Source: Candidatus Mcinerneyibacteriota bacterium
GTDB lineage: Bacteria; AUK180; JAQVHJ01
Assembly (NCBI GenBank): GCA_030630935.1
Contig: DAOVMD010000231.1
Location: forward strand, 1 to 5,526
Direction of reading: 5' to 3'
Length of the DNA: 5,526 nt
How positions within the stretch are numbered: position 1 is the first letter of the stretch; the number at the start of each line of letters is the position of its first letter. The notes under the pieces were generated by a model that saw only the letters and a list, made by a program, of their open reading frames with translations, was not told the origin of the DNA and ran no database searches. Of the stretch, positions 1 to 4,584 are shown piece after piece. A program made the translations under genes and the position numbers.

Positions 1-986
1 GTTGATTCTGCAGTGAGTTCAATATTATAAAGCTCTGATGCGCTCTTCTTAAAATATTGGAAAGTCTTCTCAATCTTTTCTGTTTTCTTTAGGGAAGGTC
101 TTGAAAAAGACCCGATTAATTCGCAACTGGTACCTTTTACGAACTCCTCTTTAATTATATCTGATAATTGTTTTTCTATTGAAGTAATAGTACTATTATC
201 ACAAACTCTAATATCTATATCAACCTCGGCATAATCAGGAATGACATTGGTTCGTGTACCACCCTTGATAATACCGGGCGTAACGGTTATGCCTTTTTCT
301 AAGTTTGTGATCTTTGAAATCTTTAAAACCTTATCTGATAATGCAATGATTGCATTTGAACCTTCTGTAAAATGTGACCCTGCATGAGCAGATTTTCCAT
401 GGACAACTACTTTAAAATCGCCTACTCCCTTACGCGCAGTCACTAATGCACCGGATTCCCGGGCTCCTTCAAAATTAAATACACCCAGAACCTGAGCTTG
501 AATACTTTTAAATAACTCACGTACTGAATAACTGCCAATCTCTTCATCTGTATTGAAAATTATCCTAATGGGTATTTTCGAAAGGAATTTGAGGTCATGT
601 AAAATTTTCATGGCTAAATAAAATACTACAATCCCACCCTTCATATCTATTACTCCGGGTCCAGTGATAGTTGATGAATTTACACGGGTGAACTTGTCAA
701 ATCCGGAATCGGGAGAGAAAACTGTGTCAAGATGCCCCAAAATCAGATAAGCATCTTCATCATCCGGAACATTTGATGCCAATAAATAACTGCGGTTATC
801 AGATCCGGACTTGATATCAGAACGAAAACCTAAACCGGTCAGTTTATCAGAAATTAAGTTCAAAACAATATTATTCCCTTTTATGTTATATGAACCGGAA
901 TTAGTATTTACTAAAACCTCAAGTAAATTAAGTGTTTTTTCAAAATGTTTCTCTGCGGATTCTTTTATCTGAGTAATCTCTGTCAT
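1..986 (-). CDS. M20-family zinc peptidase, glutamate carboxypeptidase (CPG2)-like, C-terminus cut off
   Basis: I read 328 codons from an ATG at 986-984; the frame stays open to the window edge, so the C-terminus is missing. The M20 dinuclear-zinc signature is visible: LGHLDTVF (H85, D87), GPGVIDMKGG (bridging D114), FNTDEEIGS (general base E148, metal ligand E149) and FEGARESG (E173). The dimerisation domain starts around 186 with HGKSAHAG (H201), and SFSRPS near 293-298 matches the RGRPAF segment of CPG2. The last zinc-binding His should lie beyond the window. Family members hydrolyse C-terminal glutamate or other small peptide/amide bonds; the substrate here is unknown. No signal peptide is seen, so it is probably cytoplasmic. 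One base separates it from the phosphoesterase stop, and only a weak GAG precedes the ATG, so translational coupling is likely. ArgE/DapE-type deacylase or tripeptidase activity is possible, but the motif spacing favours the CPG2 branch. Confidence 0.9.
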   Translation of the reverse strand, partial: MTEITQIKESAEKHFEKTLNLLEVLVNTNSGSYNIKGNNIVLNLISDKLTGLGFRSDIKSGSDNRSYLLASNVPDDEDAYLILGHLDTVFSPDSGFDKFTRVNSSTITGPGVIDMKGGIVVFYLAMKILHDLKFLSKIPIRIIFNTDEEIGSYSVRELFKSIQAQVLGVFNFEGARESGALVTARKGVGDFKVVVHGKSAHAGSHFTEGSNAIIALSDKVLKISKITNLEKGITVTPGIIKGGTRTNVIPDYAEVDIDIRVCDNSTITSIEKQLSDIIKEEFVKGTSCELIGSFSRPSLKKTEKIEKTFQYFKKSASELYNIELTAES

Positions 987-987
987 T

Positions 988-1794
988 TTAATGCTCAAGT
1001 GTTATTAATGTTAATTCAGGTCTACAATTAAATCTAATAGGAAATAAGGTCGTACCTATTCCTTTCGATAAATATACGGGAATATTGTTAAAATAATTCA
1101 AACCTGCATTGATCTTAAAACCTTTTTTAATATTTAAAAAAACCGGACCGAAAATAGGAAGGGCAACTTGACCACCATGAGTGTGACCGGTTAAAATTAA
1201 ATCGGGTTGACGGGATAATAAAAAATCAACCGTCTCAGGAGAATGAGTCAATACTATTCTAAGCTTATCCGATTTCGCAACTTCTCGAAATGCCTTAACC
1301 ATATTATCATAACCCCTGTGTGGGTCATCAACGCCTACTAAACGAATCTGATTCCCTATAATTATACTTTGGTTCCTTAATATCGTTATGTTCATATCTT
1401 TTAAAAACGCCTCAAGTGTCTTGACACGAGCACCATTAGCACTCAAACCATAATCATTATTGCCCAAAACACCAAAGACACCAAACTTCGATTTCATCGA
1501 TCTGAAAATCTTCTCAAATTTATAAAGCGCTGAGAAATCCTCAATAAAATCACCAGTTATAATTATTACGTCTGGGGTGACTCCATCTAAATAATCGACC
1601 AGACGCTGCTCACGACGGCCAAATTCACGCAAATGTAAATCTGAGAGATGTAATATCGTAAAGGATTCCTCTTCTGCTAAACGTGAAGTTCGAAGACTGA
1701 ACTCGTTCACCTCAAGATTATGCGGCTCAATGAAAATACTATATAATAAAATTAGTACTATAACTACTGAAATAATTAAACCGGCAATTACCAA
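988..1794 (-). CDS. Membrane-anchored metallophosphoesterase, YkuE/YaeI-like
   Basis: This 268-residue protein has a hydrophobic N-terminal segment (about 3-22) that looks like an uncleaved signal anchor, placing the catalytic domain outside the cytoplasmic membrane. The calcineurin-like metal motifs occur in order: HLSDLHL (D52, H54), ITGDFIED (D82), LGNNDYG (N112), THSPE (H184) and LTGHTHGGQ (H204, H206). Length and the GHTHGGQ ending match the YkuE/YaeI group of bacterial phosphodiesterases. The usual GNHD box is GNND here, with Asn in place of the conserved His. The start is TTG at 1794-1792; I accept it because AAGGAG lies 7 bases upstream and the frame then encodes the anchor at once. 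It is first in a two-gene unit with the M20 peptidase, under the consensus promoter at 1839-1867. The substrate is not predictable; a phosphodiester in the envelope or a lipid phosphate is plausible. UDP-diacylglucosamine hydrolase (LpxH-type) is less likely given the anchor and motif style. Confidence 0.9.
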   Translation of the reverse strand: MVIAGLIISVVIVLILLYSIFIEPHNLEVNEFSLRTSRLAEEESFTILHLSDLHLREFGRREQRLVDYLDGVTPDVIIITGDFIEDFSALYKFEKIFRSMKSKFGVFGVLGNNDYGLSANGARVKTLEAFLKDMNITILRNQSIIIGNQIRLVGVDDPHRGYDNMVKAFREVAKSDKLRIVLTHSPETVDFLLSRQPDLILTGHTHGGQVALPIFGPVFLNIKKGFKINAGLNYFNNIPVYLSKGIGTTLFPIRFNCRPELTLITLEH

Positions 1795-1801
1795 TTGTAT
1801 A

Positions 1802-1807
1802 CTCCTT
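1802..1807 (-). promoter_or_regulatory. Shine-Dalgarno site deciding a TTG start
   Basis: The minus strand reads AAGGAG here, with 7 bases before the TTG at 1794-1792. No ATG or GTG has comparable spacing, so this site fixes the non-ATG start of the phosphoesterase. Confidence 0.85.
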
Positions 1808-1811
1808 ATTT

Positions 1812-1835
1812 ATTTGACTGACCAGTCAGTCAAAT
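1812..1835. promoter_or_regulatory. Inverted-repeat operator, TetR-family style
   Basis: Two perfect 11-base arms, ATTTGACTGAC and GTCAGTCAAAT, flank a 2-base centre (CA). The site lies directly downstream of the -10 box at 1839-1844 and covers the expected transcription start (about 1831-1833). A repressor bound here would block initiation or clearance. The TGAC-type half-sites and 20-24-base symmetry resemble operators of TetR/AcrR-family repressors; that assignment is inferred. No regulator gene lies in the window. It could also form a short hairpin at the 5' end of the mRNA, but its position on +1 favours an operator. Confidence 0.75.
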
Positions 1836-1838
1836 TAT

Positions 1839-1867
1839 ATTATAACAAAAATATATTAATTTGTCAA
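1839..1867 (-). promoter_or_regulatory. Consensus sigma70 promoter of the phosphoesterase-peptidase unit
   Basis: On the minus strand, TTGACA (1867-1862) is followed after exactly 17 bases by TATAAT (1844-1839), a perfect match to both hexamers and the optimal spacing. The predicted start is about 37 bases upstream of the TTG codon, inside the palindrome at 1812-1835. A promoter this strong placed on an operator suggests high expression once a repressor is released. Confidence 0.85.
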
Positions 1868-4535: not shown

Positions 4536-4563
4536 TATATATGTCAATTGCACGATTGGTCAA
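4536..4563 (-). promoter_or_regulatory. Possible promoter for the epimerase-mutase pair
   Basis: On the minus strand TTGACC (4563-4558) is followed after 16 bases by TATATA (4541-4536), about 25 bases upstream of the epimerase ATG. Five of six bases match at each hexamer, but the spacing is one short of optimal and the predicted leader is only about 15-20 bases. The -35 box and spacer lie inside the palindrome at 4543-4584. Treat this as a weak candidate; read-through from the sugar transferase side is equally possible. Confidence 0.4.
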
Positions 4564-4584
4564 TTGACCAATCGTGCAACTGAC
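4543..4584. repeat. 42-base near-perfect palindrome in the intergenic gap
   Basis: The core 4548-4579 is a perfect palindrome of two 16-base arms with no spacer; the left arm is TTGCACGATTGGTCAA. Allowing one mismatch (4547/4580) extends the arms to 21 bases. In RNA it would form a stem of about 19 base pairs with AAUU as the loop. It lies 37 bases past the PAP2-like stop codon and 32 bases before the epimerase start. No T-tract follows on either strand, so it is not a standard intrinsic terminator. It could be an mRNA-stabilising hairpin, an operator over the -35 box, or a small inserted element. Confidence 0.9.

Follow-up and report, generated by a model that had tools for sequence, protein, structure and literature searches.

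A palindrome over a perfect promoter is a predicted TetR operator shared by two efflux-pump operons and a protease gene in an uncultured bacterium

The window analysed here, a whole stretch of 5,526 nt from a Candidatus Mcinerneyibacteriota bacterium, contains an inverted repeat lying over the promoter of two minus-strand genes, which raises the question of whether it is a repressor operator and, if so, which repressor would bind it and which genes would be controlled. The window makes up the whole of contig C220 in G000, a 3.16 Mb metagenome assembly that is 80% complete. A pattern scan placed the −35 hexamer TTGACA at 1862–1867 (minus strand); after a 17-nt spacer follows the −10 hexamer TATAAT at 1839–1844 (minus strand), which is preceded by TGn and is thus an extended −10. 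The resulting TTGACA-17-TATAAT promoter (1867–1839, minus strand) matches the consensus at 12 of 12 positions. The palindrome, a perfect 11+2+11 inverted repeat ATTTGACTGAC-CA-GTCAGTCAAAT at 1812–1835 with the core TGACTGACCAGTCAGTCA at 1815–1832, begins 4 nt after the −10 hexamer and therefore covers the expected +1 (near 1832), an overlap with the core promoter that is looked for in a TetR operator. Downstream, the Shine-Dalgarno sequence AAGGAG (1802–1807, minus strand) stands 7 nt before the TTG start codon (1794–1792) of gene 1 (988–1794, minus strand), which encodes an N-terminally anchored calcineurin-like phosphoesterase (YaeI/LpxG-like). Every element and coordinate of this arrangement of promoter, palindrome, AAGGAG and TTG at 1792–1867, described earlier by the first-pass annotation, was confirmed to the base on the minus strand. 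The 57% identical orthologue in G001, the closest relative available (same family, another genus), speaks for the TTG start, as it has the same N-terminal layout and begins with an ATG one codon away.

We compared both elements with dinucleotide shuffles of the window. The results showed that a perfect TTGACA-17-TATAAT arises in 8 of 2000 shuffles (0.4%), and a perfect repeat with arms of at least 11 and a loop of at most 6 in 5 of 150 (~3%). Because of these frequencies, the palindrome alone or the promoter alone is unusual rather than astonishing, and their overlap is suggestive, not proof. The site is taken as real because its core recurs in the genome, each time after a 12/12 promoter. The 16-base core TGACTGAC-N2-GTCAGTCA was found in exactly three copies in the G000 assembly, compared with ~0.0003 expected from composition, and all three lie 5–9 nt downstream of a 12/12 TTGACA-17-TATAAT promoter with TGn before the −10. 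They precede the window operon, an operon of tetR, tolC, RND adaptor and RND permease genes on contig C43, and the gene of a 1075-aa tricorn-like protease with Tricorn_C1, PDZ_Tricorn and Peptidase_S41 domains on C458. Weak sites with three mismatches at C114, C128 and C331 were not counted, as the forward pattern gave 6 such matches and the reversed-pattern control 7.

On C43, the site is flanked by the promoter and the ATG of the gene that comes first in the pump operon and encodes a 205-aa TetR protein (TetR_N 59.9 bits against a cut-off of 24); the same palindrome is thus found at the promoter of a tetR-family gene. Since one of the three sites precedes the tetR gene itself, autoregulation of the C43 TetR is proposed. 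This protein scored below every NCBIfam equivalog cut-off (AcrR 45 bits against 271, MtrR 48.5 against 280). G000 encodes four TetR_N genes (C43, C281, C355 and C247), and the palindrome is absent from the printed upstream regions of the other three. These were rejected as the cognate regulator: the C281 gene carries a tandem operator of another type, and neither the C355 nor the C247 gene shows the palindrome in its upstream region. Upstream of the C281 TetR gene (L012, 1042–1695, minus strand), two tandem TetR-like operators of other sequence, GTGACCAAGTGGTCA and GTGACCGAGTGGTCA, follow a promoter-like TTGACT...TATACT. Judged by the shared site and its location, the C43 TetR is the best candidate and probably the regulator. 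It had been suggested that further copies of the palindrome might be found near TetR genes, that the regulator acts from elsewhere and that the regulon is small. One of the two other copies does sit at a tetR gene, the candidate repressor is predicted to be encoded outside the window contig, and three units carry the exact core in G000, which points to a small regulon. Because the assembly is incomplete (80%), further sites or another TetR could be missing.

In the window, the second gene of the operon, which encodes an M20 family peptidase (1–998, minus strand), is cut by the contig end and continues on contig C407 of the same assembly (G000:C407). The final 59 nt of the window's minus strand are repeated without a mismatch at the start of that contig, which encodes the M20 C-terminus, followed by genes for a TolC-family channel (OEP), a Yip1-domain protein, an HlyD-type adaptor, a MacB/LolD-like ATPase and a MacB_PCD/FtsX permease, which overlap or are separated by gaps of at most ~13 nt. 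The seven-gene order is therefore phosphoesterase, M20 peptidase, TolC-like channel, Yip1 protein, HlyD adaptor, MacB-like ATPase and MacB-like permease. The join of C220 and C407 rests on the exact 59-nt overlap and on a synteny with G001 that reaches to tolC; it is supported because the phosphoesterase, M20 and tolC genes share one contig there. The operon probably ends after the permease, because interspersed repeats come next.

The OEP, HlyD, MacB_PCD/FtsX and ABC ATPase domains all passed their Pfam cut-offs, as would be required of a tripartite exporter resembling MacAB-TolC, and the window operon is, on its gene content, a predicted efflux operon ending in a drug-pump-like ABC exporter. 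As in MacAB-TolC, a TolC-family channel, an HlyD-type adaptor, a MacB-like ATPase and a permease with the MacB core and FtsX are encoded in one operon. MacB is one fused chain, whereas the ATPase and permease here are separate genes with scores of 259 and 252 bits, far below the 966 bits of the MacB equivalog (NF007826); in addition, the phosphoesterase and M20 peptidase genes precede the exporter, and the Yip1 protein gene lies inside the operon. We conclude that the exporter is predicted to work like MacAB-TolC and is not a MacB equivalog. The first-pass annotation had named a phosphoesterase and an M20 peptidase, and not efflux pumps, as the controlled genes. The two named genes do head the operon, but the exclusion of pumps did not hold, as the operon runs into a tripartite ABC exporter and the candidate regulator gene on C43 itself heads an RND pump operon. 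These exporter genes could not be seen in the window, which stops within the M20 gene.

Conservation was analysed in G001, which also holds three exact cores. Two of them are located at the orthologues of the window phosphoesterase gene and the tricorn gene, where promoter and spacing are retained as well, and a −35 hexamer TTGACA is common to all six operator sites of the two family genomes. Between the orthologous sites only the two central spacer bases of the core vary, while the 205 bp of upstream DNA compared there aligned at only ~46–49%. The site is thus conserved at orthologous genes, a further feature looked for in a TetR operator. The third G001 site precedes the gene of a 422-aa protein (L112:5973–7241, minus strand) that gave no Pfam or NCBIfam match. 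Its orthologue in G000 (64%; C467, downstream of a ClpB-like gene) has no operator in its upstream region, and the 422-aa protein was rejected as a shared regulon target. An orthologue of the C43 TetR was not found in the G001 assembly (best match 26%). The G001 contig orthologous to the C43 pump operon starts inside tolC, and the place where tetR would be expected is therefore missing from that assembly.

A search for the core with at most one mismatch in 60 genomes gave nine matching genomes outside the family. The results showed that the core directly adjoins a tetR gene in seven of these nine, and that a tolC-like gene comes next after tetR in four of the seven (L071, L073, L074 and L079). 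A wider exact search added G244, with the order palindrome, tetR, tolC, and G155, in which the core stands without an evident tetR gene beside it. The extended 20-mer TTGACTGAC-N2-GTCAGTCAA is rare, being present in 4 of 386 genomes. An operator of the form TGACTGAC-N2-GTCAGTCA thus accompanies tetR-tolC pump operons in a number of unrelated genomes and could be used to find such regulons. Recurrence, conservation and tetR linkage together argue strongly for the predicted TetR-type operator that had been proposed for the window. The accompanying view of a tightly repressed strong promoter also gains support.

The repeat could also be a TetR operator whose cognate repressor is another TetR, either missing from the assembly or one of the other three, with the C43 gene being only another target. 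The 80% completeness of the assembly would fit this, as would the three sites kept in G001, where no orthologue of the C43 TetR was detectable. We nevertheless consider it unlikely: no other tetR gene was found to carry the palindrome, which in the C43 gene separates promoter and ATG; unrelated genomes as a rule have a tetR beside the site; and the G001 pump contig breaks off short of the position expected for tetR. Much less probable is that the inverted repeat acts in RNA rather than as a protein site, as a plus-strand intrinsic terminator or hairpin or as a hairpin in the 5′ leader. The pattern scan did flag 1812–1835 (plus strand) as terminator-like, but no plausible gene on the plus strand ends at this point, TATATTATAA makes a poor T run as a tail, and it is the sequence itself, beyond its ability to pair, that is conserved at unlinked genes and, in other families, next to tetR genes. 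Terminator-like matches showed no excess over shuffles (4 against 3.6) and there was no Rfam match, and on these two results an intrinsic terminator or RNA element was rejected. A chance overlap of promoter and palindrome has a practically negligible probability, for although arms of at least 11 bp arise in a few per cent of the shuffles, the recurrence of one core in three copies, all after perfect promoters and two of them conserved in another genus, refutes it.

Our preferred reading is that the palindrome is a TetR operator over +1, through which the C43 TetR would repress the three units until a ligand releases it; we assign this reading a rough probability of 0.85. Without ligand, a TetR dimer, most likely of the 205-aa C43 protein, would sit on the palindrome, cover +1 and exclude RNA polymerase, acting by repression rather than activation. 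A small, probably hydrophobic or toxic ligand would bind the repressor, which would then let go, and the operon of tetR, tolC, adaptor and RND permease, the seven-gene window operon (presumably transcribed as one message) and the tricorn-like protease gene would be switched on together. The C43 TetR would also repress its own gene. The expected outcome is a low basal level of the RND and MacAB-like ABC pumps, the phosphoesterase, the M20 peptidase and the tricorn-like protease, followed by their joint induction. Judged from these genes, the site is predicted to belong to a well-defined stress or efflux regulon of an ordinary kind. What began as an isolated palindrome in an uncultured lineage of bacteria would thereby become a regulon of three defined units for which a candidate regulator can be named.

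A more specific possibility, which we regard as speculative and rather doubtful, is a peptide-defence regulon, in which the TetR would sense a toxic peptide or peptide-like ligand and the exporters, the M20 and tricorn-like enzymes and the envelope phosphoesterase would be induced. It is hinted at because the operon ATPase scores well, though below cut-off, against models of darobactin- and bacteriocin-export ATPases, and because peptidases are present in two of the three regulon units (M20 and tricorn-like); we treat both as hints only. If it were true, the compound would be pumped out and its remains degraded.

In AcrR/TtgR/MtrR-type systems, the tetR gene is linked to an RND efflux operon that the TetR protein represses, and the operator overlaps the promoter. 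The C43 TetR gene is likewise linked to a TolC-adaptor-RND operon, which its product is predicted to repress, and its operator overlaps the promoter; it differs in that it opens the pump operon instead of being divergent from it, and in that the regulon here also takes in peptidases and a second exporter, of the ABC type. A literature search for the exact palindromes gave no match, and the half-site matches were papers on the Thermus thermophilus repressors SbtR and TTHB023. These TetR proteins, SbtR (TTHA0167) and TTHB023, bind palindromes of the TGACYRNNYRGTCA class with nanomolar affinity, and their best shared genomic site contains TGACTGACCGGTCA; the sites overlap promoters, and transporters and efflux proteins are frequent among the SbtR targets (PMC4948773, PMC7022988). 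The window operator resembles the TGACYRNNYRGTCA class, the likeness being one of operator sequence alone: its 18-bp core TGACTGACCAGTCAGTCA contains TGACTGACCAGTCA, by eye a close fit to the published 14-mer, in two such overlapping frames. The window palindrome is longer, with 3 further matching bp flanking the core TGACTGAC-N2-GTCAGTCA on either side; its host is unrelated, and two pump operons and a protease would make up the regulon.

Other repeats were also observed in the window. Interspersed intergenic repeats (GTCATTGCG..., CAATCTGGGAGCAAGCTCCCTTTACAAACCCTGCTTGCAGGG) occupy ~1889–2160 and have ~40 partial copies in the genome, some of them ahead of the C43 tetR operon and others after the C407 permease gene. 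At 4548–4579, between two minus-strand genes, there is a perfect 32-bp palindrome, TTGCACGATTGGTCAATTGACCAATCGTGCAA, which has 24 genome copies with at most 3 mismatches compared with none for the reversed control. Its symmetry seems to be kept, because in several variants (e.g., GATTTGTCAATTGACAAATC) a change in one arm is matched by the symmetrical change in the other.
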